A stretch of DNA of 27,280 nt, taken from the IMG/VR virus record IMGVR_UViG_3300024236_000021, positions 1-27,280 of that record; one strand, given 5' to 3'. The notes under the pieces are model-generated. The model was not told the origin of the DNA. It did no database searches and worked only from the letters and a program-made list of their open reading frames with translations. Shown one piece after another: positions 1,487 through 19,900 of this stretch; position 1 is the first letter of the stretch; each line of letters starts with the position of its first letter. Both the position numbers and the translations under genes were made by a program. The DNA is from a virus.

Positions 1487-2383
1487 ATGATACCTGGATT
1501 TAATCAACTTTTAAATGCCGCGGCTTCGGGCGCCACAAGTGCTGTAGTTACTCAAGTGTTTTCTAGCTTAGGCATTGATGTTGAAAGACTTGCAAATCAA
1601 AGTTCGGGCGCATCAAGCGATTCAACTAATGCGCTAATTAATGCTTTATTATCATCAGGAGCCGGTTCTGGCGGCATCGGCGCTGCCTTGCGTATGATAC
1701 AAAACCTACAGCAAGGGCTAGGTTATGGCGCTGCCCCCGAAGAAGCAACATTTACAAAGGCTATTGTTAAAGATGATTATACTACATCTGATACAAAGGA
1801 TTGGCGCATAAAAATTAGAGGTCCAGCAGAATTAATGACTGGAGAAATTTTACAACCTATTGTAAACACAGAAAATAGCATGTTATTTCCTTTTACTCCT
1901 ACAGTAATTTTAGGATCAACAGCAAATTATAGTAATATAAACCCAGTTCACACAAATCATCCATTTTATGCATACGAAAATAGTCAAGTGCAAGATATTA
2001 CAATTACTGGAGAGTTTTTTAGTGAAAACGAAAAAGATGCAAAATATTGGATTGCATGCTTACATTTTTTAAGAACCATGACAAAAATGTATTACGGAAA
2101 AAGCGACAATTTAGGAAGTCCGCCACCTGTATGTAGACTTAACGGATACGGAAAACATGTTTTTAATGATATACCTGTGTTAATAAGTAATTTTACAACC
2201 GATATGCCAGCTGATGTCGACTACATACAATGCGACATAGGCAACGAAACAACATTTGTCCCAACACAAAGTATTATTACTGTGACTCTAATTCCAAATT
2301 ACGCAAGATCAACACAGAGTCAATTTAGTTTAGAAAAATTTGCTAAGGGTGGCTTTGTTAATACCGGCGAAGGATTTGTATAA
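1487..2383 (+). CDS. gp48: baseplate tail tube cap protein, gp48-like
   Basis: The 298-residue protein caps the baseplate hub and is the platform on which the tail tube polymerises. After an Ala/Ser/Gly-rich N terminus (residues 1-85) it carries the block that I associate with marine T4-like tube cap proteins: RIKIRGP, FPFTPTV (near 133), HPFYAYENSQVQDITITGEF (about 157-177), YWIACLHFLRTMTKM, a PPPV plus GYG segment and PADVDYI. The alignment between repeated strands fits the tube-protein-like fold shared by gp48 and gp54, and gp54 is the main alternative name. The ATG at 1487 is preferred over an in-frame ATG at 1445, because the latter lies upstream of the late promoter and ribosome site (TAGGAGA, 1471-1477). 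This is the first gene of the late operon; its stop overlaps the next start (TAATG). Confidence 0.7.
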   Translation: MIPGFNQLLNAAASGATSAVVTQVFSSLGIDVERLANQSSGASSDSTNALINALLSSGAGSGGIGAALRMIQNLQQGLGYGAAPEEATFTKAIVKDDYTTSDTKDWRIKIRGPAELMTGEILQPIVNTENSMLFPFTPTVILGSTANYSNINPVHTNHPFYAYENSQVQDITITGEFFSENEKDAKYWIACLHFLRTMTKMYYGKSDNLGSPPPVCRLNGYGKHVFNDIPVLISNFTTDMPADVDYIQCDIGNETTFVPTQSIITVTLIPNYARSTQSQFSLEKFAKGGFVNTGEGFV

Positions 2384-2691
2384 TGTCTTTAGAAAAAGTA
2401 AAAAATAAAGGACCATATAGTAACACAAACATAAATCCGGCAGGGTTTTTAGATGTTCTAAAACCGAGAGCAGTGCCTGTAGCAGGAGACGATGTGTATT
2501 ACGAAATAACTCCTGCTTATACATATAGACCAGACCTTTTAGCTCATGACTTATACGGATCAAGAGAACTATGGTGGATTTTTGCACAACGTAATCCTGA
2601 TATAATTAAAGATTCTGTTTTTGATTTTGTTGCAGGTACTAAAATATATGTTCCGCAAAAAAAGCATTTAAGAGCAATTTTAGGAATTTAA
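2383..2691 (+). CDS. gp53: baseplate wedge subunit gp53
   Basis: The 102-residue protein has the hallmark gp53 core at residues about 50-91: a segment LLAHDLYGSRELWWIFAQRN followed by PDIIKDS.. DFVAGTKIYVP. This is a LysM-like fold (HDLYG..LWW, then AG..I.VP); in T4 gp53 clamps neighbouring wedges together around the hub. It is shorter than T4 gp53 (about 196 aa), being essentially the LysM-like core with a short N-terminal arm. Start and preceding stop overlap (TAATG) with AAGGAT at 2370-2375 as ribosome site, so it is translationally coupled to the tube cap gene. The next gene starts directly after its stop. Confidence 0.88.
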   Translation: MSLEKVKNKGPYSNTNINPAGFLDVLKPRAVPVAGDDVYYEITPAYTYRPDLLAHDLYGSRELWWIFAQRNPDIIKDSVFDFVAGTKIYVPQKKHLRAILGI

Positions 2692-5600
2692 ATGACTAAA
2701 TCTTGGATAGATCCAGATAAAATTACAAATACTGTTGCTTCTAATACTGTAACTGCTGTAACTTCACTAACAAGAAGCAACGGTGTAACTACTGGAGTAG
2801 GTACAGCCGCTTCTGTTTACAACTCAGTCGCAACTGCGACTAGTAGAGGCACGGCTGATATATTTAATGACGCAAAAAACGAAGCAACAAGCGCAGCTTT
2901 AGGATACGGTTGGCCCGACTATGGCAGTAATCAACCAACAGGGATTGTAGATCAATTTAGACAAGGTGGATTTAATTTCTTACAAGAACAAGGTTCGCTT
3001 AAATTAGACAACTTGTTAGGTACGTTTAGTCAAGTTCCTAATGCTCCCCTCTCTAGTGCATTGTCTTCTAGTTTAGATACCCAAGCATTATTTGCAGGAT
3101 TAGATCAGTCTACAATAGATACTCTTACTGGAGAGATAGCCGGACAGTTAGGAAACTTTTCTAGCCCAGCAGATTTTGTTTTAGATTTTGGTTTTGATAA
3201 ACTGAATAATATTGTAGGCGGATTTAGTGATATCGAAAACTTTATCACTAAGACTGTAAATGTTATCCCTAAAGATTTTGAATCTATATTAGGCGCAGTT
3301 GGATCTCCAGGAGGAGTGTTTGACACATTACGTCAATTTGTTGAGAATATAGAAGATAGATCCGGAATAGACATTATTCCGGGTAACACTCCGTCAAGTA
3401 ACTTGCAAACAAACGTCCTTAGAGATTTTGACTCTTATAATTACATAATTACTCTAGGCATATTAAATGTAGACCAAGTAAATAATCCTTCAATGTTAAG
3501 ATTCAATGGAGGATTTGATAAAGTTATAGTGAGATCTGGAGGAGGAGCGTTAGATAAACGACAGCAAATACCGTTAGAAAAAAATGAAGGTATACATGCA
3601 GAATATTACATAGATAATCTAAGATCAACTTCTCTTATACAACCAAATACACAAACCGGTGTAGGTATAGGATTAGATATAAGTTTTGAAGTAATTGAAC
3701 CATATTCAATGGGAAATTTTTTACAAAGTTTAGTTATTGCTGCTGAAGAATTTGGGTTCCCGTCATTTAACGATACTCCGTTCTGTATAAAGATTGAATT
3801 TGTTGGCCACAAAGCTCCTAACACTTCTACATCTATGCCTCCGCCAATATATATGCCTATTCAAATATTAGATGTTGCATTTGATGTTAGTGGACAAGGA
3901 TCTAAATACAGCCTAAGTTGTGTTCCGTATAGTGAAATTGCATTCGGCGATCAAAATGCAGAAACATTGTCTGATATTACTGCAATAGGAACTACGGTTT
4001 CTGAGATGTTAAACGGAGTAGATAAGTCTGTTACTTCAACATTAAATCAACGTATAGACAAGTTAGAAGATACAAATACAATACCGGCAGGCGATAGATA
4101 TGTAATATGCTTTCCTAAAGACCCTACATTAGTAGGAAAAATTGTTTCGGGAGAAATAAGCGTACCAGAAACAACCGTAAGTGCAGTAGAACAAGTTAAA
4201 GCTGAAAAAGGTTTAGATAGTGTTAGTACATCTGGCTTAGAAGAAAAACAAAAAACTTTAGACACTGTTGCAGTGACAAGTTCGGGTTCTGGCTTATTTG
4301 ACAAACTAGATGCTTTTTCAAGAGAAAAAACATTTATGAACGAAATTGGTCTTGATCTAATGTTAACAGATGACGGCGAAGGCGGCACAGGAACAACAGC
4401 AGATATGAATGTAGTTCACGACGAGCTAGGAGATACTGTAGATGTCAATAGCCCAGAAGCAGCAGTAACAGAAAAAGCAAGGACTAAGGCGTTCCCATCA
4501 GGTATGCGTATAGATGAAATAATTGAAAAAGTTATTGTTGATAGTGAGTACTCTGCAAAAAATGCTGCTGAGTCTCCAGAAAACGGTGTAAGAAAATTTT
4601 TTAGAATTAATGCTCATACATATCTAGATCCTAACGCAGAAGCATCTGAAAAATTAGGAAGAGCTCCTAAAATATTTGTTTATATAGTAGTTCCATTTTA
4701 TGCTGATGATGCAAGTTTTACTGCACCTAACGCTGTTGCTGCTAATCGAGGCGGTATAAGAGCTGCTGCAAAAAAAGAATACAATTATATTTACACTGGA
4801 AAAAATGAAGATGTTATTAATTTTGATATAAATTTTAATAATGCATTTCTGCAAGAAGCGTATGCTAATTTTGGTATGAACCAAGCAGCTCGATCATCTG
4901 CCGGCAGTGATAGAAAAACTTTCCAAGCAACAGACGGTAATTCTGGATCTTCTCCTAGTACTGCAAAAAGTGATAGAAAAGGTCTAGGCGGCGGCCAAGT
5001 TGTAGAAACAACTAAAATGACAATTACAGGAGATAGCAGAACTAGTGATATAAGAAAAAGGATGGCTGAAACATTCCATCATAGATTACTAAATTCTGAC
5101 GTAGACTTAATTACAGCTGAAATAGAAATATGGGGAGACCCATTTTATCTTCCTAGCCAATCTGGAAACTACATGCCAGAACGTGCACAAGGAACGCCGT
5201 CAATGACAGACGAAGGATATATGACTTATATTGAAAATCAAGTTTATATAATTGTTAATTTTAGAACACCTCTTGATTATAGTCAAAACTCGCACAATAT
5301 GCTTTTTCCAGATGAAAAAATTGTTCCTGAATTTAGTGGTATTTTCCAAGTATTGTCTGTTGAAAATGTTTTCGAAGGTGGACAGTTTAAACAACGGTTA
5401 GATTTAATAAGATCAAGATCTCAAGAAGTATCAGGCGAAGCAGGAACATTCGTACAGGTCAACGACGAAGTAGGCGATAAAGTAAATGATAATCCACTAA
5501 GTGCAAGTAATGACGGCGATGAAGGCAGCAACAATGACGGCACAACAACAGACCAACCTTGTAATTCTAATAAACTTATTTCAACAGCTTATGGCGATCT

Positions 5601-5820
5601 TAAAGATAATGTTTCTAATTTGTTTCCTGATTTAAGTACCGTAGCCGGAGATGCAATTATGTCTCAAATTCCTAGTGTAACAGTTGCAGGAATAACTTGG
5701 TCTCCTTCAAAGAGTTTGTTTACTGCACCACCACAAATTAAAGAAGATATAACCGCAGCACAAGCAGCGTTTGAATCGGCTTTAGAAAATTCGCCCTTAA
5801 ATTTAAGAGGATTTAGCTAA
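2692..5820 (+). CDS. large baseplate hub-type structural protein (probable gp27 role)
   Basis: The 1042-residue protein has no single motif that names it outright. An N-terminal Thr/Ser/Ala-rich region (1-240) is followed by a segment with hub/tail-protein character at about 243-440: DFDSYNYIITLGI, FDKVIVRSGGG, EPYSMGNFLQ, FCIKIEFVGH and a GSKYSLSCVPYSEIAFG end. Further on are VYIVVPFYAD (near 660), YNYIYTGKNEDVINFDINFN (near 700) and a C-terminal part with EIEIWGDPFYLP (near 810) and FSGIFQVLSVENVFEGGQFK plus QRLDLIRSRS (about 880-910), which resembles the closing strands of gp27-like hub proteins. It sits between gp53 and the lysozyme/spike genes, where a hub protein would be expected, so a gp27-equivalent role is inferred. 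T4 gp27 is only 391 aa, so this would be an enlarged version. The start abuts the gp53 stop, with AGGA six bases upstream. Confidence 0.55.
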   Translation: MTKSWIDPDKITNTVASNTVTAVTSLTRSNGVTTGVGTAASVYNSVATATSRGTADIFNDAKNEATSAALGYGWPDYGSNQPTGIVDQFRQGGFNFLQEQGSLKLDNLLGTFSQVPNAPLSSALSSSLDTQALFAGLDQSTIDTLTGEIAGQLGNFSSPADFVLDFGFDKLNNIVGGFSDIENFITKTVNVIPKDFESILGAVGSPGGVFDTLRQFVENIEDRSGIDIIPGNTPSSNLQTNVLRDFDSYNYIITLGILNVDQVNNPSMLRFNGGFDKVIVRSGGGALDKRQQIPLEKNEGIHAEYYIDNLRSTSLIQPNTQTGVGIGLDISFEVIEPYSMGNFLQSLVIAAEEFGFPSFNDTPFCIKIEFVGHKAPNTSTSMPPPIYMPIQILDVAFDVSGQGSKYSLSCVPYSEIAFGDQNAETLSDITAIGTTVSEMLNGVDKSVTSTLNQRIDKLEDTNTIPAGDRYVICFPKDPTLVGKIVSGEISVPETTVSAVEQVKAEKGLDSVSTSGLEEKQKTLDTVAVTSSGSGLFDKLDAFSREKTFMNEIGLDLMLTDDGEGGTGTTADMNVVHDELGDTVDVNSPEAAVTEKARTKAFPSGMRIDEIIEKVIVDSEYSAKNAAESPENGVRKFFRINAHTYLDPNAEASEKLGRAPKIFVYIVVPFYADDASFTAPNAVAANRGGIRAAAKKEYNYIYTGKNEDVINFDINFNNAFLQEAYANFGMNQAARSSAGSDRKTFQATDGNSGSSPSTAKSDRKGLGGGQVVETTKMTITGDSRTSDIRKRMAETFHHRLLNSDVDLITAEIEIWGDPFYLPSQSGNYMPERAQGTPSMTDEGYMTYIENQVYIIVNFRTPLDYSQNSHNMLFPDEKIVPEFSGIFQVLSVENVFEGGQFKQRLDLIRSRSQEVSGEAGTFVQVNDEVGDKVNDNPLSASNDGDEGSNNDGTTTDQPCNSNKLISTAYGDLKDNVSNLFPDLSTVAGDAIMSQIPSVTVAGITWSPSKSLFTAPPQIKEDITAAQAAFESALENSPLNLRGFS

Positions 5821-7116
5821 ATGGCAGTTACAGTAAGTGATATGGACAGAGCATTACTTAGACTTATTGCTGACGGAGAAGCAGTACGGAGTAATCCGTA
5901 CTGTAGTGTATGGCCAGGACATGTTGAACCTGAGCTAACGGTAATGACGTTATCACAAGTTGAGTCATATCAGAAACAAAGAATAAAAGATGGAAGAAAA
6001 TCTAGTGCAGTAGGCAAGTACCAATTTATAAAAAGTACACTCAAAGAATGTGTAGGGTATTTAGGATGTGATCCTATGCGGACAGTGTTTTCTAGAGATG
6101 TTCAAGATGCGTTAATTATTCAGCGATTAATAAAATTTAGAAAATATGATCAATGGAAAGCAGAATCAATTGATACTGGAAAATTTATGATTTTCCTTGC
6201 TGCTGAATTTGCTAGTATGCCAGTTCCTTATGATATACCAGCAGGCAGCATATACAAAAATTCTCCTAGAAGAAATCTTAAAAAAGGACAAAGTTTTTAC
6301 GCAGGCGACGGATTGAATAAAGCCAACCATGACCCAGATCATCTATATCAAGCACTTGAGGACATTAAAGCTGGAGGATCGGGAGAAGTTCAAGAAATAG
6401 ATGTTACAACTACAGGTAGTAATAGAGCCCTTCCTCCAACAGGTGTAAGTGAAAAAGCACAAGTAGAAAAATCATCAGCAGGACCTGGGGTTGGAGCATA
6501 TAGGGGCACACGAGCAGGCAGCCAACCGCAAAATAGTGTTTCACCTCAAGATTATAATCCTTATATCTACGGAAGAATAGATCCGTTAGACGACAGATAT
6601 GATTTTAGGACTGGAGAAAAAATTAAAGATATTGGCATCCACGGAATAAGTTCAGCAGCAGCAACACCGGTTCAAACAGAAACTTCAGGCGCAACAAATT
6701 CTCCTACAAATGCAGGTGTTGCACCTGTTGAAGCACCGTCAAATCCAGATGCAGAAGATCCTCGAGGGCAAGAACAATTGCCTGATTTAATTCCAAAACC
6801 CGAAGAACCTGCACCGCCGCCGACTGACAAAAATCCTGACGAAGACCCCGGAGCACCAGGATTACCGTTTGGAGCAGACGAAATTATAGAAGCAATAGAG
6901 AAAAAAGTTGAAGTAGTAGCTACAAAAATAGATAATCTTTTACCTTGTGTTGAATCCGTAACAGACGGCTACAGCCTTTCAGGTGCAATAAGTATTGCTA
7001 CAGACGATATTACTGGCGCAGTAACTGGCGCAGTAACTGACGCAGTAACTGATGCTAAAGACGATCTAATTTCCACCAGCAAAAGCTGGCTAAATTCAAA
7101 CAAGGGACCCCAGTAA
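5821..7116 (+). CDS. baseplate-associated lysozyme/transglycosylase-like protein
   Basis: The 431-residue protein begins with a lysozyme-superfamily domain (about 1-160). Visible features are LLRLIADGEAVRSNPY with E20 as candidate catalytic glutamate, SSAVGKYQFIKSTL (61-74), and FSRDVQDALIIQRL further on. The order (early Glu, then S..G.YQ, then F...QD.A) resembles the lambda R-type lytic transglycosylase (GH104) and related muramidases. It would cut peptidoglycan glycan strands during tail penetration. Residues about 185-350 are a Pro/Glu/Ala/Gly-rich linker, and the end carries repeats of GAVT/DAVT followed by a short probable helix. It lies directly before the gp5-like spike, which itself lacks a lysozyme domain, so the two genes together seem to do the work of T4 gp5. 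There is no signal peptide. The stop overlaps the next ATG (TAATG). Confidence 0.7.
   Translation: MAVTVSDMDRALLRLIADGEAVRSNPYCSVWPGHVEPELTVMTLSQVESYQKQRIKDGRKSSAVGKYQFIKSTLKECVGYLGCDPMRTVFSRDVQDALIIQRLIKFRKYDQWKAESIDTGKFMIFLAAEFASMPVPYDIPAGSIYKNSPRRNLKKGQSFYAGDGLNKANHDPDHLYQALEDIKAGGSGEVQEIDVTTTGSNRALPPTGVSEKAQVEKSSAGPGVGAYRGTRAGSQPQNSVSPQDYNPYIYGRIDPLDDRYDFRTGEKIKDIGIHGISSAAATPVQTETSGATNSPTNAGVAPVEAPSNPDAEDPRGQEQLPDLIPKPEEPAPPPTDKNPDEDPGAPGLPFGADEIIEAIEKKVEVVATKIDNLLPCVESVTDGYSLSGAISIATDDITGAVTGAVTDAVTDAKDDLISTSKSWLNSNKGPQ
5882..5903 (+). repeat. 9-bp perfect hairpin with GNRA tetraloop inside the lysozyme-like gene
   Basis: CAGTACGGA (5882-5890) and TCCGTACTG (5895-5903) are perfect inverted repeats around GTAA, a GNRA-type tetraloop in RNA. 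A G-U pair (5881/5904) could lengthen the stem. It lies about 60 bases into the gene, just after the codon for the candidate catalytic E20, and includes an Arg CGG codon in a gene set that otherwise prefers AGA. Confidence 0.6.
7013..7055 (+). repeat. 12-base tandem repeat encoding GAVT/DAVT
   Basis: A roughly 12-base unit (actggcgcagta and close variants with gac or gat) is repeated about three to four times near the 3' end of the lysozyme-like gene. It encodes TGAVTGAVTDAVTDA, before a final charged segment. It is in frame and small. Confidence 0.7.
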
Positions 7117-9833
7117 TGGCAAGAAGAGGAACTACATACACCCGTACTGGAAGGTCAAGCAGTTTTCCAATAAAATCAGGTGTTCCTTACGAAGCAATTA
7201 TTATTAACAATTTAGATGTTAATAATATGGGCACTCTTGAAGTTGAATTACTAAAGTATACGTCAGCTGGAAATTTACCACAAAAAAGCGGACAGACTGC
7301 TACTGTAAAATACCTTAGTCCGTTTTATGGAACAACGCCTTCAGCAGGTGTTCAAAATAATGATGGATACGAATTTACTCAAAAAAGTTACGGCTTTTGG
7401 GCAGTCCCTCCTGACATAGGAACCAAAGTGTTAGTTATATTTGCAGAAGGAAATGCAAACTTTGGTTACTGGATGGGTTGTATACAAGATGATTTTATGA
7501 ATTTCATGGTTCCAGATGGCAGAGCTGCAACTACGCTGACTACTGAAAATACTCCAGATAATTTAAGAGGTGTTAAATTACCAGTAGGAGAATTTAACAA
7601 AAAAGTTGAAACTGGAAGCAAAGTTGATACTACTTTGTTTAATAAACCCTTTAACAAAGATTTTACAAGTGTATTAGAAGTTCAAGGTTTATTACTTGAC
7701 GAAGTTAGAGGAACTACAACAACTAGTGCAAGACGAGATTTTCCTAGTATGGTATTTGGCTGGAGCACACCAGGTCCTAAAGATAAGAGAAAAGAAAATC
7801 CTAAATTTGATGTAGGCGCCGAGGAAAAAAAGGCAAATGTTCCGTACAATAGATTAGGCGGATCATCCATTGTAATGGACGATGGCGACGAGCGTTTTGT
7901 AAGAGCAAATCATGCAGAAGACGGCCCCCCTGTTTATGTAAACAAAGGTCTTGGAGACCCAGGCGGCGACGAAACTATACCTCAAAATGAATTATTTAGA
8001 ATAAGAACACGCACAGGTCATCAAATACTGTTACACAATGCAGAGGATCTAATATACATTAGTAACAGCAGAGGAACAGCATGGGTAGAATTAAGTTCAG
8101 ATGGAAAAATAGATATCCATGCACAAGATAGTATAAGTGTAATGAGTAACCAAGACATCAATTTTACTGCTGAAAGAGACTTTAATATTGATGCAGGTCG
8201 TAACATAAACATGAGGGCTCAAGCAAGATATAGTGACGGACAAAAAACTTACGACGGATTAGAATGTGGTAGAATACAGATTGAGTCTAAATATGACACA
8301 AATATTTTAGTAGGTGATCAATACAAAAGAAATGTTCTTGGCACAAGTCAAATAAAAATAGATGATGATAGTTTTGTGACTGTGACAGGTAATAGCGAAT
8401 TATTAGCAGGTAATATTCTCGATACTTCAAAGGGTACATTTAATCAAAAATCTGCACACTCCTTTTATAGAGAAAGTGCAAGTAATATAAATGATCTAGC
8501 TGCTGGTTTATATATGAATAAAGCAGAAGATGTTAATCTACACGGGTTAGCAAATATTAAAATCTTATCTGGCGCAAATTTAGAAACAATCGTTTCTGGA
8601 GACAGTTTAACAACAATTACAGGCGTATTCGATGTACAATCTGATTCTGCACATTTTGAAACAACTAACGGCATTAATATGCTTGGCGGCACAGCGATTG
8701 CAGGTGATGCAACAAAAATAAGTTGGAATTCAGGAGTAGCAGTAGCAGGTACAGCAGCTACAACAGCCGTTAGTGCAACAGCATCAACCGCAGCAAAACC
8801 TGCTGAAGCAATAATTCCATTAACGCAAATTGTATTACCTTACACTTTTCCAGGAGCTCAAGACACCGTTCCTTATGAAAGTATTCTTACACGGGCACCG
8901 CAGCACGAACCATATATGCATCATGAAAATTTAAATCCTGCAGGATTTAAACCTGAGCAAACTGACAGAGAATCACCAGGGCAATTAATGCCAAGTGATA
9001 GAATTATAACGCCAGACACGTTTACTAAAACTAAATCTGCAAATCAAACCTCGTCACAAGTTTATGGATCCTCAGGAATTAACGATTACGGCACCACAGG
9101 CGATAATGCAATTGTTAACGGAGAAGTTGTTCCTCCTAAAAATGTGCCAGGCACTGCCGCAATTAGATCAATTGCGAATTTTGAAATTGATAAAGAAAGA
9201 TCAACAGATTCTTATGCTAATAGATTCTTTAAAGGTGACGGTCCGTTAGGAACAGTATCAACTAGTAAAGGAATTACAGCCGAAGTTGCTGAAATTTGGG
9301 TTCCTAATTTCCAAGGCTTTATTGATGCATTAGAAGCTACTGGCTATGAGATAAAAGTTTTATTAGGTTATAGCAAACGCAATATAGGAAATTCAAGCAA
9401 ATGGAGCACACATGCTAGCGGCGCGGCAATTGATATAAATCCGCCAAACCCGGTAAGGAATGGTGATCCAAATGGACTATGGATTCCAAGACCGTCTAAT
9501 GCTCCTATAACTGACATGCCTGCAAATACTGGCGAACTTGCTAAAAGCTTTGGCTTAGGTTGGGGCGGAGCTTGGAATAGTTTAGACGATGCAATGCACT
9601 TTAGTACCGCAGCAAATGAAGGTGGAAATTATAGATTTACACCAGGTCTAATACCGCAAGGTCCAACAACTGATGAACAGATTACAGAATCAGGCGATCC
9701 GAGAGGAGAAGATTATTATATTGCTCCTGCAAAAGAAATTACAGAAGAAAAAGATGCAGAATCGCCTACATCGCCGCAAGAACAAAATAATCCAGGACCT
9801 CAGAATGCTGACGGATCCTCTAATGTGCAATAG
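7116..9833 (+). CDS. gp5: gp5-like baseplate hub/spike with C-terminal M15 peptidase domain
   Basis: The 905-residue protein shows three parts. Residues about 20-135 are the gp5/VgrG-type OB-fold (YGFWAVPPDIGTKVLVIFAE, then GYWMGCIQDDF). Residues about 253-560 form a spike-like beta-helix region, with VMDDGDERFVRANH, RTRTGHQILLHN, then short repeating strands (KIDIHAQDSISVMSNQDINF and following); a His-rich linker (HEPYMHHENLNP) comes next. Residues about 720-840 match an M15 (VanY/L-Ala-D-Glu type) zinc peptidase: H766-A-S-G-A-A-I-D773 and D825-A-M-H828 supply the three zinc ligands and catalytic context. In T4 gp5 a lysozyme sits between OB-fold and helix; here it is absent and the gene before encodes one. 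The protein should trimerise, bind the hub and pierce the outer membrane, with the peptidase cutting peptide cross-links. It is followed 11 bases later by gp25. Confidence 0.85.
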   Translation: MARRGTTYTRTGRSSSFPIKSGVPYEAIIINNLDVNNMGTLEVELLKYTSAGNLPQKSGQTATVKYLSPFYGTTPSAGVQNNDGYEFTQKSYGFWAVPPDIGTKVLVIFAEGNANFGYWMGCIQDDFMNFMVPDGRAATTLTTENTPDNLRGVKLPVGEFNKKVETGSKVDTTLFNKPFNKDFTSVLEVQGLLLDEVRGTTTTSARRDFPSMVFGWSTPGPKDKRKENPKFDVGAEEKKANVPYNRLGGSSIVMDDGDERFVRANHAEDGPPVYVNKGLGDPGGDETIPQNELFRIRTRTGHQILLHNAEDLIYISNSRGTAWVELSSDGKIDIHAQDSISVMSNQDINFTAERDFNIDAGRNINMRAQARYSDGQKTYDGLECGRIQIESKYDTNILVGDQYKRNVLGTSQIKIDDDSFVTVTGNSELLAGNILDTSKGTFNQKSAHSFYRESASNINDLAAGLYMNKAEDVNLHGLANIKILSGANLETIVSGDSLTTITGVFDVQSDSAHFETTNGINMLGGTAIAGDATKISWNSGVAVAGTAATTAVSATASTAAKPAEAIIPLTQIVLPYTFPGAQDTVPYESILTRAPQHEPYMHHENLNPAGFKPEQTDRESPGQLMPSDRIITPDTFTKTKSANQTSSQVYGSSGINDYGTTGDNAIVNGEVVPPKNVPGTAAIRSIANFEIDKERSTDSYANRFFKGDGPLGTVSTSKGITAEVAEIWVPNFQGFIDALEATGYEIKVLLGYSKRNIGNSSKWSTHASGAAIDINPPNPVRNGDPNGLWIPRPSNAPITDMPANTGELAKSFGLGWGGAWNSLDDAMHFSTAANEGGNYRFTPGLIPQGPTTDEQITESGDPRGEDYYIAPAKEITEEKDAESPTSPQEQNNPGPQNADGSSNVQ

Positions 9834-9844
9834 GTAAATATGTT

Positions 9845-10285
9845 ATGAGTGAACTAGAAGACAATTTATACAAAAGAGTACAAGTTCCTAGTACTTCGAC
9901 AGCACCAACTGTATCTAGAACTTATAGAGGATTTTATTCAGGAGATTCGTCTAAAGGTTTTAAGCTGTACGATTTTGAAATTATCAAACAAGATTTAATT
10001 AATCATTTTCACATACGCCAGGGCGAAAAACTTGGTAATCCCGAGTTTGGATGCATAATATGGGACATACTATTTGAACCATTTACTCCGGCATTACAAC
10101 AAGCTATTGCAGAAAATGTTACGTATATTATTAATTATGACCCTAGGATTTCTGCAGAAGAAGTATTTGTAGAAGCATATGAAAACGGAATACAAGTTTC
10201 AGCTTCAGTAACATATAAATCCTATTCAATTACTGAGCAACTTAATTTTAAATTTGACAGTAATATTGGATTAATAGACAATTAA
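9845..10285 (+). CDS. gp25: baseplate wedge subunit gp25
   Basis: The 146-residue protein is of the GPW/gp25 family (T4 gp25 has 132 aa). The conserved core is seen at PEFGC (66-70), with W..LFEPFTP after it (T4: PEFGCDLSDQLFENMTP) and YDPRI at 98-102 (T4: YEPRI). gp25 lies at the inner baseplate next to gp6 and gp53, and its core bundle helps to start sheath polymerisation. An N-terminal stretch of about 40 residues rich in Ser/Thr precedes the family domain. The ATG at 9845 has only a weak ribosome site (TAGG, 9831-9834), so translation may depend on ribosomes arriving from the spike gene. Confidence 0.93.
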   Translation: MSELEDNLYKRVQVPSTSTAPTVSRTYRGFYSGDSSKGFKLYDFEIIKQDLINHFHIRQGEKLGNPEFGCIIWDILFEPFTPALQQAIAENVTYIINYDPRISAEEVFVEAYENGIQVSASVTYKSYSITEQLNFKFDSNIGLIDN

Positions 10286-10335: not shown

Positions 10336-13300
10336 ATGTCTTCAAGTGATAGACAGTCTAAGTTGCTAGTAACTGAAGACTGGAAAAGAATATATCAAAG
10401 CTTTAGAAATGCAGAATTTCAAAGCTATGATTTTGATAATCTTCGCCGCGCGATGATTAATTATCTGCGCCAAAATTATCCCGAAGATTTTAACGATTAC
10501 ATTGAATCAAGTGAATATCTTGCGCTGATTGATATGATTGCTTTCCTTGGGCAAAACTTATCATTCCGTATTGATTTAAACGCTCGTGAAAACTTCCTTG
10601 AAACAGCAGAACGCAGAGAAAGCGTCTTACGTCTTGCACGTATGCTGTCGTACAATCCTCGCAGAAATCAAGCAGCTAATGGACTGTTTAAATTTTCTAC
10701 TATTAAGACATCGGAATCAATTTTCGATAGTACAGGAATAAATTTACAAAATACAGTAATTAAATGGAATGATCAAACTAATACAAATTATTTTGAACAA
10801 TTTACTAAAATTTTAAATGCAGCATTACCCTTAGCAAACCAAATTGGTAATCCTTTAAAAAATGATACAATTTCAAACGTTTCAACACAAAAGTATAGAC
10901 TTAATGCAGTTAACACTGCATCTGCAATTTTTCCATTTACAAAAATAATTGAAGGTAATAATGTACCATTTGAAATTGTAAGTACAGATATAAAAAATAA
11001 TAGCTTATCAGAAGAACCTCCTCTACCAGGCACTAGTCCTGCATTTTTATTCAGAGATGACGGCCAAGGACCTGGGTCTTCAAACACTGGATTTTTTATG
11101 CATGCACGACAAGGTGTTTTGCAAACCGGAACTTTTAATGTTACTAATCCTGTGCCTAATCAAGTAGTAGGTATAGATGTTGCAAATATTAATGATAGCG
11201 ATGTATGGCTTTATAGTGTAGATACAAATGGCTTTGAAACAACTAATTGGACAAAATTAGATGCTGTAGAAGGCAACTCAGTCATTTACAATAGCTTGTT
11301 TAACCAAGTTAGAGATATATTTCAAGTCCAAACAAGAATAGGCGATAGAATTAATGTTGCGTTCAGTGACGGAACTTTTGGTAATTTGCCATCTGGCAAT
11401 TTTAAAATTTATTATAGAACAAGTATAAACAAACCATTATCAATATCTCCTGGTTCAATCGGTACAGTTTTAATTGATATTCCGTATCAAAGCAAATCGG
11501 GATCTCAAGAAACGTTAACTATAGGGTTGCGTCTTCAATATACTATTAACAATAGTGCTCAAGCTGAATCTAACGCTGAAATAAAATTAAATGCTCCTTC
11601 GACATTTTATACACAAAATAGATTAGTAACAGGAGAAGATTATAATATTGGCCCGTTATCAGTTAGTCAAGATATAATTAAAACACGAAGTGTAAACAGA
11701 ATTTCTAGTGGTATAAGCAGATACTTTGATTTAAAAGATCCTAGTGGAAAATATAGTACAACAAAATTATATGCAAATGACGGAATTGTATACAAAGAAC
11801 TATATCAAACAAAACAAGATTTTACTTTTACAAGCCAAAGCGACATTGAAGGCGTGATTGTAAACAATATACAAAGCATTGTGAGGTCTAATCCTTTACG
11901 TAATTTTTATATGAGCGAATATCTTGATTTGTTAGTAAGAGATTTAAATGCAGCATGGGTTAGCAAAACAGTAGCAACAAATAGAAATGTAGGAATACTA
12001 CAAAATCTAGATAGTGTTCCATTTAGGGTCGGGTCGTTTGCATCAAATAGTTTAAAATCTTTAACTGTAGGATCTATGCTTAAATTTGTTGCGCCTACAG
12101 GCAAGCATTTTATGGCGGACAACAGCCATACTATAATGGACGGAGATGCTGATCATCCTAACGCTGTGACATACAAATGGACAAGAGTAGTTAATATTAC
12201 AGAAGATGGTACAGAAGTAAGTAGTTTGACAGGTCAAGGAGGTATAGTTCTTAGTGACGTTATACCAGAAGGCGCCCTTTTAGAAAAGATTATTCCAGTT
12301 TACAGCACAAATTTTAGTAATGACTTAAAATTACAAATTATTGATCAAACCTTTGCATACAAAGACTTTGCGTTACGTTATGATAGGTTCGACAGAGAAT
12401 GGAAAATCATTACTGCTTCAAATATTAACACTGTAAATAACTTTAGCTTAGGTAAAACTGGAGACATTTCGGGGGAAAACTTAGATGCAAGCTGGCTACT
12501 ATATTTCAAAACAGACGGAGAAAAATACACTATTGTAAATAGAAATTTACGTTATGTTTTTGAAAGTGATAACGAATTAAGATTCTTCTTTGATAGCGCA
12601 GATAAAATTTATGATTACAAAACTGGTAAAATAGTTAGAGATAGAATATCGGTTTTAGATATTAACCGAACACCTGACACTAATATTCCATTTACAACTA
12701 ATTTTAACTGGAATATAAGTAATGCGTATAGGGACAAAGAAGGATATGTTGATAGTAAAAAAATACAAGTTGATTTTTATGATTTAGACGACGACGGCTA
12801 TATTGATGATCCTGATTTATTCACACAAATAGTAGATCCTAATATTAATCCTCAATCAAAAATAATATTTCAAAAAAAATATGTCACTAGTGACAATGTA
12901 GAGGAATTTAAGTATTTTGAAAATAAAGATAATGAAATATTAATAAAAACTAATTTGTCTGCTGTTGGAGCATATAGTCAGTATGATAATCCGAATCAGA
13001 TAATTTACCTATATGAGGAAGGTACTTTTATACAAATTAATTCTGTTTTAAACAACCATAGAGTAATTACAGATTATAAAGCATTTATTGGCAGAGATAA
13101 ATTAAGATTTGAATACACACATGTTGCAGACTCTAACTACAGATTAGATCCAGCAGTAAGTAATATTATTGATACCTATTTACTTACAAAAGCATATGAT
13201 ACTAATATTAGATTATACTTAAATGGTAGCTTAAATGAATTACCCTTACCTCAAAGTAATGACTCCTTATTTAAAAATTACGGAGCACAACTGTCAAATA

Positions 13301-13962
13301 TAAAGTCTATTAGCGACGAAATAATTTATCATCCTGTAAAATACAAAATACTGTTTGGCGAAAAGGCGAAAAAAGATTTGCAAGTAAAATTTAAAATTGT
13401 ACGTAACAAATCGATGGTTGTAAACGACAACGAGCTCAAAGCAGACGTTATACAAGCTATTGATAGATTCTTTGCTATAGAAAATTGGGACTTTGGAGAA
13501 ACTTTTTACTTCCAAGAACTTGCAGCATATATTATGAACCAACTAAGTCCAAAATTAGTAAGTATTGTAATTGTGCCTAGACAAGGGTCACAAACTTTTG
13601 GAAGTTTATTTGAAATACGTTCTGAACTTGACGAAATTTTTATAAGCGGAGCCACTGTATCTGATATAGAAATTATTGAAGAGCTTACATCTGTACAATT
13701 GCAAACGTCTGGCAATGTTATTACTAGTGTCAACAGCAATGCATCTGAAGTAACGTCGGCACCAATATTAAGCACAAATACAACAAACACAAGCGCAAAC
13801 ACAAGCACGAGCACACGCACAGTTGTTTCTAATAATTCTAGTACAAATGTGCCAAGCAACAGCGGATCTAGCAGCAGTAGTAGTTCTAGCAGCAGCAGTA
13901 GTTCTAGCAGCTCTAGTGGATCTAGCGGGTCAGGAAGTTCTAGCGGAGGATACAGCTACTAA
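10336..13962 (+). CDS. gp6: baseplate wedge subunit gp6
   Basis: The 1208-residue protein opens with the conserved gp6 N-terminal domain (about residues 28-115: FQSYDFDNLRRAM, YLALIDMIAFLGQN, RIDLNARENFLETAERRESV, ARMLSYNPRR). gp6 dimers form the continuous inner ring that ties baseplate wedges together and drives the dome-to-star change. T4 gp6 has 660 aa; the extra length is mainly in the middle and C-terminal parts. A segment at 816-827 (DLDDDGYIDDPD) fits an EF-hand-type calcium loop. The C terminus is Asn/Thr/Ser-rich from about 1135 and contains 17 consecutive serines (1178-1194) and a GGYSY end. Arg and Leu codons at about 36-116 differ from the rest (CGN and CTG instead of AGA and TTA). 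A late promoter and AAGGAA ribosome site precede it, and its stop overlaps the next start. Confidence 0.9.
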   Translation: MSSSDRQSKLLVTEDWKRIYQSFRNAEFQSYDFDNLRRAMINYLRQNYPEDFNDYIESSEYLALIDMIAFLGQNLSFRIDLNARENFLETAERRESVLRLARMLSYNPRRNQAANGLFKFSTIKTSESIFDSTGINLQNTVIKWNDQTNTNYFEQFTKILNAALPLANQIGNPLKNDTISNVSTQKYRLNAVNTASAIFPFTKIIEGNNVPFEIVSTDIKNNSLSEEPPLPGTSPAFLFRDDGQGPGSSNTGFFMHARQGVLQTGTFNVTNPVPNQVVGIDVANINDSDVWLYSVDTNGFETTNWTKLDAVEGNSVIYNSLFNQVRDIFQVQTRIGDRINVAFSDGTFGNLPSGNFKIYYRTSINKPLSISPGSIGTVLIDIPYQSKSGSQETLTIGLRLQYTINNSAQAESNAEIKLNAPSTFYTQNRLVTGEDYNIGPLSVSQDIIKTRSVNRISSGISRYFDLKDPSGKYSTTKLYANDGIVYKELYQTKQDFTFTSQSDIEGVIVNNIQSIVRSNPLRNFYMSEYLDLLVRDLNAAWVSKTVATNRNVGILQNLDSVPFRVGSFASNSLKSLTVGSMLKFVAPTGKHFMADNSHTIMDGDADHPNAVTYKWTRVVNITEDGTEVSSLTGQGGIVLSDVIPEGALLEKIIPVYSTNFSNDLKLQIIDQTFAYKDFALRYDRFDREWKIITASNINTVNNFSLGKTGDISGENLDASWLLYFKTDGEKYTIVNRNLRYVFESDNELRFFFDSADKIYDYKTGKIVRDRISVLDINRTPDTNIPFTTNFNWNISNAYRDKEGYVDSKKIQVDFYDLDDDGYIDDPDLFTQIVDPNINPQSKIIFQKKYVTSDNVEEFKYFENKDNEILIKTNLSAVGAYSQYDNPNQIIYLYEEGTFIQINSVLNNHRVITDYKAFIGRDKLRFEYTHVADSNYRLDPAVSNIIDTYLLTKAYDTNIRLYLNGSLNELPLPQSNDSLFKNYGAQLSNIKSISDEIIYHPVKYKILFGEKAKKDLQVKFKIVRNKSMVVNDNELKADVIQAIDRFFAIENWDFGETFYFQELAAYIMNQLSPKLVSIVIVPRQGSQTFGSLFEIRSELDEIFISGATVSDIEIIEELTSVQLQTSGNVITSVNSNASEVTSAPILSTNTTNTSANTSTSTRTVVSNNSSTNVPSNSGSSSSSSSSSSSSSSSSSGSSGSGSSSGGYSY
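13861..13944 (+). repeat. serine-codon low-complexity repeat at the gp6 3' end
   Basis: Imperfect 18-base units built of AGC, AGT and TCT codons encode 17 serines in a row (13867-13917), followed by Gly/Ser mix. All units are in frame. Alternating AGC/AGT/TCT codons mean the DNA is less repetitive than the protein. Confidence 0.9.
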
Positions 13963-16900
13963 TGGCATATAATAATAACCAAAACGAAAGTTCATTACCA
14001 ACTCCTGGCAATAATAAAAAACAGTCTATTGATTTTCTTCCTAAGTTCTTTAGGACTGAAGCAAATAGGAAATTTTTACAAGCAACACTAGATCAATTAA
14101 TTAGCAACGGTGCAGCAGAAAAAATTGATGGTTATGTGGGTAGAAAGTATAACGAATCATATAAATTAGGCGACCACTATTTAGAGGATGTTTCTAGATT
14201 ACGAAACGACTACCAGTTTGAACCGGCAGTGTCATTAAGAGATAATTTAGACAATGTAGAATTTGCAAAAGATTATCAAGATTATATTAATGTATTAAAA
14301 TACTTTGGCACTAATATCGAAAATCATGATAGATTAAATTCTGTTAACACTTATAGTTGGACACCACATATAAACTGGGATACGTTTACTAATTTTAGAG
14401 AATATTATTGGTTGCCAAATGGTCCGCTAACTGTACCAGTTACAGGACAATCAAGAGAAATTACTAGTACATACAGTGTTACTATTGAAGATCAGGGCGA
14501 TAACGTTGCCTATGTATTTAATGACGGATTTACTAGAAATCCTAAATTAAAATTATATCGAGGACAAACTTATAGATTTGATATCGACACTCCGGGTCAT
14601 CCTATTGCATTCTCAATAAGTAGATCATTTACACCCGGTGTTGCACTCCTAGTTGCAGGTCAAGAAGGCATCCGCGGCGACGGCTTGTTTGATGCTGTAC
14701 TTTACGGTAATGAATATGACCAAGGTGAATATGTTGTACTTCCTGTAGACAACTCTGTTACTTTTGAAGCTGACGAAAATGTTTCAACTCTTTTTCCAGA
14801 CGGAATAAGAAAATTTGACGAAGAAGGAAATGAAGTAGCAATTGCATATGTTGAAAAAGGAACAATAGAATTTACAGTTCCTTTTAACGCACCAACTCAT
14901 TTATTTTATATTAGTCAAAATGAAGTTAATACAAGCGGACAAATTAGAGTTTATGATGTAGAAGAAAATACATTTTTAAATGTAGAAGAAGATATTTTAA
15001 ATAAAAAACAATATAAGTCTTCAAATAATATAGAATTTACTAATGGTCTTTGTATACAATTTCAGGGAGATGTATATCCTGAAAAATATAGTTTAGGTGA
15101 ATGGTACGTAGAGGGCGTAGGATCTCAAATTGCTTTAATTAGTAAACAAGATCTTACTATTCCGTCGGCCTATACGTCAGACGTTGAAGTACCCTTCGAT
15201 ACTAACGAGTTTGATGTTTTTCCATTTGATACAGCAAATAATTTTCCTTTAGTCAAAGATTATATTACAATAAACAGGGCTACTAAAGATAAAAACCCTT
15301 GGAGTAGAAATAATCGATGGTTCCATAAAGATGTCGTATTAAAAAGCTTTAGATATAATAATGTTGCTGAAAATTTGGACGATAATTATAGAGCATCTCG
15401 TCCTATTATAGAGTTTGATGCTGGAATAAAGTTATTTAATTATGGAGTATCTGCAAAAAAAGATATAGATCTTTTAGATAGTTTTACTACAGATGTTTTT
15501 AGTACTATACAAGGACAGGTTGGTTATATTGTAGATGGGATAGAATTACAGCAAGGTATGCGTGTTCTCTTTACAAATGATTCTGATATACTTGTTAGCG
15601 GAAAAATATTTGAAGTAAAGTTTATTAATCTTAATAATCAACGGGTTATTAAATTAGAAGAAACTATAGATACAATGCCTTTAGATTTAGAAACTGTATT
15701 TGTAAAATCTGGTAAAAAATATTCTGGATTAAGCTTTCACTACACAAACAATAGTTGGGTGCAATCTCAAACAAAAGACAGTATTAATACAGAACCTATG
15801 TTTGATTTATGTTGCCCACAAGGTAATAGTTATGCAGATCCTACAGTATTTAATAGCACTACGTTTAAAGGTACGAAAATATTTTCTTACAAAAAAGGCA
15901 ACGGCAATGACGATACAGAATTAGGGTTTCCGCTGTCTTATAGAAATATAGAAAACTCTGGTGATATACTATTTGAATTTAATTTACTAACAGATTTCTT
16001 TAATGTGCAAGAGGGTGACGATTTAATCACAATTAAAACTGACACTGCAAATCTTAGAAAATATAAAGATAGAGAAAATTTTGACTATCTGAACGGCTGG
16101 AACAATACACCTTCAAGATTCCATCAATATGTAATTAAAGACATTGAAGTAGATTTATTAACTACAAATAAGATATCTATAGATACTTATAATGCACCTG
16201 CAAGACTTACTGACTTAAAAATTATTGTATATAAAAACAACAATCTTTTATTTAATAGCAAAGATTATACAATCGAAAAGAAAGAAAGTAATGTCTATTT
16301 AACTTTTGAAAAAGACTTGGAGCCAGGTGATCTTATAAAAATTAAAACACATAGTAAAGAATCAAAAAACGAAAATGGTTACTATGAGCTTCCGATTTCG
16401 TTAGAACGAAATCCATTAAATGACGACATTACCGAGTTTACTCTCGGAGAAGTGTTTGATCATGTTGATAGTATGATTGAAGAACTTAAAGACTTTCGAG
16501 GCACATATCCTGGAAACAATAATCTAAGAGATTTAAAAAATATATCAAAATTTGGTAAACGCTTTGTAAAGCATGAGTCAGGACTTGCAAATACAATTTA
16601 TCATTTTACAAGTAAAGAATATAACATTATTAGAGCTGTTGAATTTTCAAAAGAAAAATATCTAGAATTTAAGAGAAACTTTTTTGATACTTCTCAAAAA
16701 TTAGGATTCGACGGCACTGATATCGCACATGTCGATAAAATCCTATATGAACTTAACAAAGATAAAAATAAAACACAGCCGTTTTATTTTAGTGATATGC
16801 TTGCTGCTGGTGCAGCAGCAAGGAACGAATACAGAATAATCGATAACAATATTAATTTTTATCCGTTAACAAGAAAGTTTAATTTAGATGATTTGACTCA

Positions 16901-19900
16901 ACAAGCAGTTTATTTGTATATTAACGGGGTACAACTTGTTCATGGAAGAGACTATAAATTTACAGATGATAATTTTGTAGATATATTTCGAGAAAAAAAT
17001 AACGGTGATGTATTAGAAATATATGAATACGAATCAACAGATGGTAGTTTCATACCATCTACTCCGTCTAAACTCGGACTATATCCTACTTGGTATCCGC
17101 ATATTAAATTAGATGATACCTCGGCTAAAAAAGAAACAATATATAATGCAGGTCCTTTTAAAATTTACGGAGAATCTGAACTTGGAGAATCTAAAAATAA
17201 ATTTGGTTATTATTATCCAGTATTTACTACAAAATCTGCTGCTAAAGAATACAATACAACATCTGAAAACACTATAGAAGAAGTATATTTTAAAGGACTA
17301 AACAAAGTATTTTATATACCGTCTGATATAGGTAGTTTTGCAACTTTAAATGATACTGAAGATTTTGAATTTTTTCCAAATGTTCGTCCATTTATTATAG
17401 GTCATGATGGTAGCCAAATATTGTGTTATCTTGATTATAGAGACAAATTGGCAATAGAATTAGAAAAAAGAATTTACAACAATATAAAGGTTGATTATAA
17501 CGATAATGATATCGACGTTGAAGCTTACTTAGGTAATGATTTTGCAGACTATCCTGTGCCTCAAGAAATCCAAAATCAGTTGTTATTACGTGACTTCACA
17601 GCATGGCAAAAATTTATACAAGTAGGGTATGCAGAAAATAGTTTTTATGACGTTAACAATCCCTTTACATTTAACTATAAAGATGCAAATAATTTAAAAG
17701 GTAAACAATCACCAGGATTTTGGAGAAAAATTTACTTTAATAACTTTAACACTGATAATCCTCACAGTTGTCCGTGGGAAATGTTAGGATTTACAAATAA
17801 ACCAACATGGTGGAACACTGTGTATGGTCCTGCACCCTATACAAGTAACAATTTAATTTTATGGAATGATTTAGAATTAGGTCGTATTGCAGACCCAGAA
17901 AATACACGAATAGATAAAAGATTTGTACGCCCTGGATTAAGAAATTTTATACCTGTAAACGAAAAAGGAGATTTAATATCACCATTAGATTGTAATATTG
18001 TTTCAAACTTTAATCAAAGAACTGCAAGAGAGTCTTTTGAATTTGGAGACTATAGTCCTGTTGAATCAGCTTGGCGTAAAAGTTCAGATTTTCCCTTTGC
18101 ATTACTTAGAACTCTATTACTTACAAATCCTGCTGATACAATTGCTAAAGGATTTGATTTAGCAAATGCAAAACGTAACATTGCTAATCAAAAAACTTAT
18201 GCTCCTACAGGCAAATTTATTGCAAATAAGGATATAGTTGTACCTAATACAAATGTCGATTCAGTTAGAACCATTACTAGTGGACTTTTGAATTACATTT
18301 ATAATCTTGTAGCAAGCGATGTACTTAGTGTATATACAACCTACACAGACCAATTAAAAAATCTTCAAGTTAATTTAAGTTTTAGGCTTGCTGGGTTTAG
18401 TGATAAACAAAAAATTAATTTAATACTAGAAAGTAAATCGCCGAAACACGATATTGGATCGAGCGGCATATTTGTACCACAAGAAAATTACAAATTAGTT
18501 TACAATGTGAGTAGTCCGCTAGAGAATTTTACTTATAGCGGAGTTATAGTTGAAAAATCTCCAAACGGTTTTATAATTACAGGATACAATGAAAAATATC
18601 CTCAGTTTGATTATTTTAAACCTTTAATCGGATCAACGAAATATCCAGTTACAGTAGGCGGCCTTAGTGAAGAGTTTAGCACCTGGGCACCTCGAGCACC
18701 GTATAAAAAAGATCAAATAGTATTTCATTTAAATGCATATTATAGAGTGACTTCTGACTTTACAAGCAATACTACATTCACGCAAGATTTTTTAGCTAAA
18801 CTGTCTACATTACCTAGTGCAGGCGGCAGAGTTGCAAATTTCTATAAAAACTTTGACAATGTTACTACAAAGTCTTTGTCTTATGGCACTATATTAAAAA
18901 CTGTACAAGAAGTAGTTGATTTTTTATTAGGTTACGGTGCATTACTAAAATCAAAAGGATTTATATTTGATGATGTAACTGATGATGTAGTCAATGATTG
19001 GCCTTCTGTTGCAAAAGAATTTATGTTTTGGACTACACAGGGGTGGGCAGACGGTACAGTGATTTCTTTAAGTCCGTCTGCTAATGAATTAAGATTTCAA
19101 ACTGAATATTCAGTTGTAGATAATATATTTGATAAATTTTATGATACACATATTATTGCTAACACTGGCGATGAATTAGACGGAGAGTTTAGTAGTCTAC
19201 TTAGAGACGGTAATAGTTTTGGTCTAAAAATTAAAAATTCTGATCTAGGACTTTACGGCATGTCATTGCCTATAGTACAAAAAGAACACATAGTAATTTT
19301 AGACAATACTACTATTTTTAATGATGTAATCTATCATCCTGCATCAGGATACAGGCAAAAACGGATTAGAGTTACAGGTTATAGATCAGATGAATGGAAT
19401 GGCAGTTTAAATGTTCCAGGATTTTTATATGACGATGCTGTGGTAAAAGAATTTGAAGAATACAAAGATTATTCTATAGGTAATATAATAAAATATAAAC
19501 AGTTTTACTATGTTGCTACACAAAATACTATAGGATCTACAGAAATAGATTATAATCAATGGATACAATTAAATGAAAAACCAGTATCTGATCTAATTAC
19601 AAACTTTGACTATAGAGCATCACAATTTAACGATTTTTACGAATCTAATACTGCAAGCTTTGATCCAAATTTACAAGAATTATCTCAAAGATTTATAGGA
19701 TTTCAAAAGAGAGAATATTTGAGTAATCTTATTATAGACGATGTTAGTCAGTTAAAATTCTATCAAGGAATGATACAAGAAAAAGGCTCAAAAAATTCTA
19801 TAATGAAACTATTTGGAGCACTCAGTAGTAAGGGCCAAGAAAGTTTAGAGTTTTTTGAAGAATGGGCAGTAAAAACAGGAATGTACGGCTCGACTGAAGA

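Follow-up and report, generated by a model that had tools for sequence, protein, structure and literature searches.

A GH104-like lysozyme gene beside a spike gene with a C-terminal M15C-type peptidase domain in the baseplate cluster of a marine jumbo-phage-type fragment

The baseplate cluster and its lineage

The window (the whole stretch of DNA analysed here) is an IMG/VR fragment of 27,280 bases from a contractile-tailed phage of the marine jumbo-phage type. Its plus strand carries, in this order, a virion structural gene, a gp53-like wedge gene, a hub candidate, a lysozyme gene, a spike gene, gp25-like and gp6-like wedge genes and a giant ORF; a late sigma factor and an SbcD-like nuclease are encoded on the minus strand, upstream of the baseplate cluster. 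The features considered below are the following:

2383–2691, plus strand: gp53-like baseplate wedge gene (phrog_7145 baseplate wedge, 1.3e-24)
2692–5820, plus strand: hub candidate, 1042 aa (phrog_11190, 3.2e-21; family alignment; C-terminal tails compared)
5821–7116, plus strand: separate lysozyme gene, 431 aa, with an N-terminal GH104-like domain and a low-complexity tail that carries the RYDF motif
5827–6414, plus strand: lambda-type (GH104-like) lysozyme or lytic transglycosylase domain, with E20 and SAVGKYQ
6577–6636, plus strand: RYDF motif IDPLDDRYDFRTGEKIKDIG, lysozyme aa 253–272, a proposed docking tag
7116–9833, plus strand: spike gene, gp5/VgrG-like, 905 aa, with the putative C-terminal peptidase
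7191–7772, plus strand: N-terminal OB-fold region of the spike (phrog match at aa 26–219; Phage_base_V at aa 90–123)
8076–8855, plus strand: beta-helix region, approximate (DUF2345 match from aa 321; VgrG profile match; end inferred)
8892–8951, plus strand: conserved helix-end motif RAPQHEPYMHHENLNPAGFK, aa 593–612 (invariant alignment columns)
8952–9188, plus strand: variable linker from helix end to peptidase, aa 613–691 (gappy, poorly conserved alignment columns)
9189–9665, plus strand: M15C-type zinc peptidase domain, aa 692–850 (PF13539; Foldseek top match Ply500 2VO9; alignment)
9411–9434, plus strand: predicted zinc ligands H766 (9411–9413) and D773 (9432–9434) (alignment)
9588–9599, plus strand: putative catalytic D825 (9588–9590) and predicted zinc ligand H828 (9597–9599), in DAMH (alignment)
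9845–10285, plus strand: gp25-like baseplate wedge (PF04965, 4.3e-9)
10336–13962, plus strand: gp6-like baseplate wedge (phrog_10646, 8e-298)

The giant ORF that follows the gp6-like gene (13962–27278, at least 4439 aa) is open at the 3' end of the fragment; Pseudomonas phage Paride and Phosso carry giant structural ORFs at the same position.

The order sigma factor, gp53, hub, spike, gp25, gp6 is common to the window, RaK2, 121Q, XbC2 and Paride. Paride displays the gene order of the window minus the lysozyme gene, and the orders found in RaK2, XbC2 and 121Q are similar to that of the window, which therefore belongs, among jumbo myoviruses, to the RaK2/PA5oct side. Its closest named relatives are the phages RaK2, 121Q, XbC2 and PA5oct, not T4, and the nearest named spikes are only about 28–36% identical to the window spike over the OB/helix part. 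The hub candidate, which occupies the hub position of RaK2 and PA5oct, carries no enzyme, whereas the hub C-terminus of relatives bears an M15C domain or another peptidase. Since its family profile gave no credible match to solved structures in the PDB, its designation as a hub and its presumed homology with gp27 derive from synteny and position.

The lysozyme gene, the spike and their conserved motifs

An earlier note on this DNA had proposed that a lysozyme/transglycosylase-like domain with E20 is encoded by a separate gene just upstream of the spike gene, and this is borne out. The ORF matches phrog_90 ('endolysin', 1.9e-24), and its family profile, in an alignment that includes the lambda E and S..GRYQ, matches the lambda lysozyme (1AM7/3D3D, about 5e-5). 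With the AlphaFold model of the domain (pLDDT 87.7), Foldseek gave a single confident match, 1AM7 (probability 0.99, TM 0.50/0.61, but a weak E of 0.025). The lysozyme profile check suggested in the note thus succeeded with phrog_90 and the GH104-like lambda profile and failed with Pfam, which gave no match to the ORF; a direct sequence search of the PDB with the ORF returned only chance matches to porins (E about 0.5). Taken together, the lambda-lysozyme profile match and the 1AM7 fold match support the assignment to GH104. The domain is confined to aa 3–198 of the 431, the remainder being a low-complexity tail in which one stretch, PLDDRYDFRTGEKIKD, is conserved.

The motif DDRYDFxTGxKV is common to standalone lysozymes, to the peptidase-bearing C-termini of hubs and to enzyme-free neighbours. 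Counted with a broad pattern, a stricter one missing the VgrG3-class adaptors, it occurs in 83 of the 1349 unique ORFs of the surveyed loci: 53 standalone GH104 genes, nine peptidase-bearing hub C-termini and 21 proteins without a detected enzyme, nearly all of the latter at the same gene position and three of them truncated pieces. Shuffled sequences gave 0.18 matches per set. Among the 1349 ORFs, the motif was found in no spike and in none of the 109 ORFs that match a hub but lack a peptidase, and it is absent from the RaK2-likes and cyanophages examined. Of the 54 standalone GH104 genes in this clade, 53 contain it, only L105 carrying it on the next gene instead, and a surveyed locus has either one copy (74 loci) or none (19 loci), never two. 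As DRYDFRTG is spelled by 28 different DNA sequences in 40 proteins, the motif is under selection as a peptide. Because the lysozyme and the M15-bearing hub C-termini share it, the separate lysozyme resembles a hub C-terminus that became detached more than it does a lost piece of gp5. The simplest reading is that RYDF is a candidate docking tag, and the window lysozyme gene would then be a tag-bearing adaptor loaded with a GH104 domain. Other short motifs (DPRGxDQ, DDAILRQ and GxGQVDPAL) are found repeatedly in this clade where hubs, third genes and some spikes have low-complexity tails, for example in the window (5821–9833) and in L087, L105 and L130.

The spike ORF overlaps the lysozyme ORF by one base (5821–7116 and 7116–9833). 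Its N-terminal 220 aa or so match phrog_13211 ('baseplate hub subunit and tail lysozyme', 3.5e-47) and its family profile matches a solved T6SS VgrG (8GRA, 3e-5) over the helix; the Phage_base_V (OB) and DUF2345 matches are both below the Pfam cutoffs, and direct sequence searches of the PDB with the spike gave no matches. An OB fold followed by a beta-helix, the arrangement of the gp5/VgrG superfamily, is recognized in this protein. The two regions are contiguous and, in agreement with the earlier note, Pfam and phrog profiles matched no lysozyme-type domain inside the 905 aa, including between the OB fold and the helix. In the helix-end motif, RAPQHEPxxHHENLNP (aa 593–608), nine positions are invariant over 14 diverse relatives. 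This motif lies about 85 aa before the peptidase and is also present in spikes without enzyme, those of Paride and SCTP-2 ending in a shortened form of it (HEP/FEP...H).

The spike C-terminus is predicted to be an M15C zinc peptidase with intact active-site residues. PF13539 (Peptidase_M15_4) matches aa 759–830 with an E of 2e-14 (54.3 bits for a cutoff of 25), and was above the cutoff again in a repeat search. VanY (PF02557) has no match in the window, so that the M15/VanY profile check suggested in the note succeeded for its M15 part and the domain is attributed to the M15C/Ply500-like branch. The zinc ligands announced as complete, i.e. those of SxHxxGxAxD (H766 and D773) and a distal histidine (H828), are all present, as is an acid three residues ahead of the latter (D825 in DAMH), which we take, from the role of the DxxH acid in Ply500, to be catalytic. 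Conservation of the residues argues against the degenerate active sites considered in the note: the H-D and DxxH pairs are retained in 49 of 49 unique relatives, down to 47% identity (the strict ligand pattern in 48, the 49th, L082, retaining DAMHF), and E20 of the lysozyme in 54 of 55 GH104-like domains. Compared with the PDB by Foldseek, the predicted M15 fold retrieved Ply500, Hedgehog, VanX and MepA, all LAS proteins, with an E of only 0.047 and a mean pLDDT of 76; a profile search of the PDB with the M15 domain gave no matches. In one locus (L014:2934–4802 and 4815–5663), the spike is encoded in two pieces, OB/helix in a 622-aa ORF and M15 in another of 282 aa, which reflects either a sequencing error or a real split since the near-identical L012 and L066 are intact.

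The peptidase had also been placed at the tip of the spike. It is indeed C-terminal, but it need not replace a sharp tip, because the helix-end motif precedes it and a relative, L085, has a PAAR protein. The L085 spike carries an M15C domain and is of the same type as that of the window, and the record to which it belongs encodes a candidate tip PAAR protein. The PAAR-like gene of this 330-kb record (L218:1438–1755, 105 aa, PF05488 5.7e-9) is distant from the spike gene. A spike capped by PAAR and bearing three tethered peptidases is thus more likely than a peptidase acting as the tip.

Enzyme domains on spikes, hubs and third genes of relatives

Scans of IMG/VR yielded about 200 loci, among which 93 complete, distinct spikes were counted. 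The C-terminal slot of these spikes is either bare (5 of 93) or occupied by one of at least eight enzyme families. Whether relatives share the architecture of the window, a question that the earlier note had left to a survey of gp5 architectures, can be answered positively: 38 of the 93 combine a spike M15C domain with a separate GH104 gene, located upstream in 34 cases and downstream in four. A T6SS VgrG3-like C-terminal lysozyme domain is found on 19 others, in which no peptidase was detected; the glycan/peptide cutter pair is therefore not obligatory. These 19 are the complete members of a group of 20 relatives of the window spike that is represented by L113 (the other spikes of its cluster being L098–L101, L106–L108, L110, L111, L114, L116, L118–L122, L130, L135 and L139), and it is this scanned representative for which the PF21277 VgrG3-like domain was scored (L113:8630–9478, 6.6e-27).

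The opposite arrangement, with M15C on the hub and GH104 on the spike, occurs in L125, L128 and L133 and also in the truncated loci L131 and L132. Other loci join a hub M15C domain to a spike bearing GH24 (L041, L109 and L127; PF00959 2.4e-20 for L041), a SleB-type domain (L141) or a transglycosylase-like domain (L087). CHAP genes lie downstream in L042, L045 and L142. The L105 spike carries a putative peptidase and a SleB-type domain, and L042 unites GH104 and a putative peptidase in a single spike chain. The latter (L042:5923–9960, 1345 aa) has in addition a stretch that by eye looks like SGNH, and the next protein, of 908 aa, matches CHAP/NlpC weakly. A second family of spike peptidases, PEP2, was found in L080, L086, L095 and L102; the name peptidase for PEP2 and PEP3 derives solely from RHDxGxAxD...HxD-type motifs, Pfam giving no support, and when PEP2 was compared with M15C by hhalign, the HxxGxAxD core alone aligned, not significantly. 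This shuffling of domains is directly visible in the loci, as are the domains themselves, their catalytic residues and the synteny.

Parsimony on the spike-core tree requires 16 changes of cargo family. Association was counted over the 70 tree rows in which the hub could be seen. Of the 35 rows that have a spike peptidase, 34 also have a glycan cutter on a different protein (the remaining one is discordant), and rows without spike peptidase have no glycan cutter elsewhere (35 of 35). The pattern is striking but is no statistical proof, as it comprises only three phylogenetically independent contrasts (two agree, none opposes and one shows no difference) and cannot reach significance with that number. 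In the M15C tree, hub and spike copies lie on opposite sides (support 94); the relocation of M15C between hub and spike therefore looks like one old event, not many.

A model for entry and the alternatives to it

As the earlier note had suggested, a glycan cutter and a peptide cutter appear from their sequences to be encoded side by side on proteins of the baseplate cluster. The two genes probably constitute an entry toolkit of a contractile-tailed jumbo phage, with swappable slots for wall hydrolases. We infer that both products are present in the virion and active, and their action can be viewed as follows. Upon sheath contraction, the trimeric spike (OB fold and beta-helix) would be driven through the outer membrane. 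The M15C zinc peptidases, borne on linkers past the end of the helix, would cut the stem peptides of peptidoglycan, and the neighbouring lysozyme, a lambda-type glycan cutter, would be held on the hub or the spike via its tail, probably by RYDF. The combined cutting of glycans and peptides would make an opening in the wall through which the tube can pass. In this lineage, three slots, at the C-terminus of the spike, at that of the hub and in the third gene, probably serve interchangeably for wall hydrolases. It is conceivable, though we lean slightly against it, that RYDF is the docking tag of a more general cargo-loading system of the baseplate, in which a small, largely disordered adaptor or a hub tail recruits to a single fixed position any wall enzyme with which it is fused, hub, adaptor and spike exchanging cargo in a T6SS-like manner.

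Several known systems resemble parts of this arrangement. The spikes of RaK2 (PMC3622015) and CBB (PMC5259590) comprise an OB fold, a helix and a C-terminal lysozyme, an M23-like domain being present in CBB and its homologues. RaK2 gp078, CBB_240, 121Q and XbC2 share with the window the gene order and the succession of OB fold, helix and C-terminal hydrolase, and 121Q, XbC2 and RaK2 also have a small separate lysozyme gene nearby. However, RaK2-like spikes associate a C-terminal GH24 with an M23-like domain that is below the Pfam cutoff, whereas the window spike has an intact M15C, and the sugar cutter of the window is a GH104 domain on another protein with RYDF, a motif that the RaK2-likes do not have. 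The hub gp15 of the Anabaena myophage A-1(L) carries peptidase and endoglucanase domains that were tested in vitro, so that a baseplate with both glycan- and peptide-cutting domains is real (PMC10966104). Both kinds of cutters are likewise predicted from the sequence of the window; however, all the enzymes of A-1(L) are on the hub, and the C-terminus of its central spike is a plain loop. The lysozyme domain of the A-1(L) hub matches the GH104 family profile weakly (E 0.005). Among T6SS, evolved VgrGs (VgrG3, VgrG2b) are spikes with wall-active or zinc-peptidase cargo at their C-terminus, and that of VgrG2b acts in the periplasm (PMC6899460); VgrG2b is an HExxH enzyme, not an M15 one, unlike the spike of the window, whose neighbours (phage gp53, gp25, gp6 and late sigma factor) are not those of a T6SS cluster. 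Ply500 and the M15C L,D-endopeptidases share with the window domain the H-D-H ligands and DxxH, and Ply500 is the top, though weakly scored, match of its predicted fold, but Ply500 is a free endolysin and the window domain is fused to a spike.

The 431-aa lysozyme could instead be a late-acting lysis endolysin that merely sits in the baseplate cluster: phrog_90 is named endolysin, and among solved relatives whose enzyme is assigned the nearest, lambda R, is one. This is unlikely, however, as the gene is located between those of the hub and the spike, its product shares RYDF with hub C-termini, L125, L128 and L133 have this GH104 domain as part of the spike itself, and the GH104-like domain of cyanophages lies within 1300–1550 aa proteins of the tail cluster. 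That the spike M15 domain would be a non-catalytic, wall-binding or structural module has a precedent in a seemingly dead LAS peptidase on a spike, since the M23-like domain of RaK2 type, found below the Pfam cutoff, appears by eye no longer to have the HxH ligands in RaK2, 121Q, XbC2 and 2.275.O. All four metal-binding and catalytic residues are nevertheless kept throughout the M15C set, which makes this reading very improbable for the window.

The earlier note had viewed the locus as a dismantled gp5. T4 gp5 is, like the window protein, a central spike with an OB fold and a beta-helix, and carries a GH24 lysozyme between them; no GH24 domain is found at this place in the 905-aa spike. Break-up of such an ancestor, with transfer of the internal lysozyme to a separate gene and addition of a peptidase at the tip, would agree with the OB fold and helix devoid of internal lysozyme and with the adjoining lysozyme gene. 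It seems scarcely credible, since the separate lysozyme is of the lambda/GH104 type and not GH24, its tail matches hub C-termini and not gp5, and the nearest relatives (RaK2, 121Q, XbC2 and PA5oct) have a contiguous OB fold and helix, with lysozyme or other hydrolases, if any, after the helix. Rather than a T4 gp5 that was broken up, the window spike thus resembles T6SS spikes in appearing to be a holder for swappable tools.

Since each element has a precedent, the novelty would reside in the intact spike M15C, in the mirror-image exchange among hub, third gene and spike, and in the RYDF motif, none of which was found described in the literature searched. The passage of contractile tails through peptidoglycan is usually told via the single internal lysozyme of T4. 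The 93 complete spikes of this clade provide a natural series in which the chassis is constant and sugar and peptide cutters change identity and attachment point. This series includes a candidate docking peptide, reveals a T6SS-type effector domain on phage spikes, and is a source of candidate wall enzymes with intact active sites. In cyanophages, GH104-like (Syn19 and P-TIM40) and M15C-like (S-H38) domains (loci L002, L003 and L217) are found in large, poorly annotated tail-cluster proteins encoded between gp26 and a tail protein.
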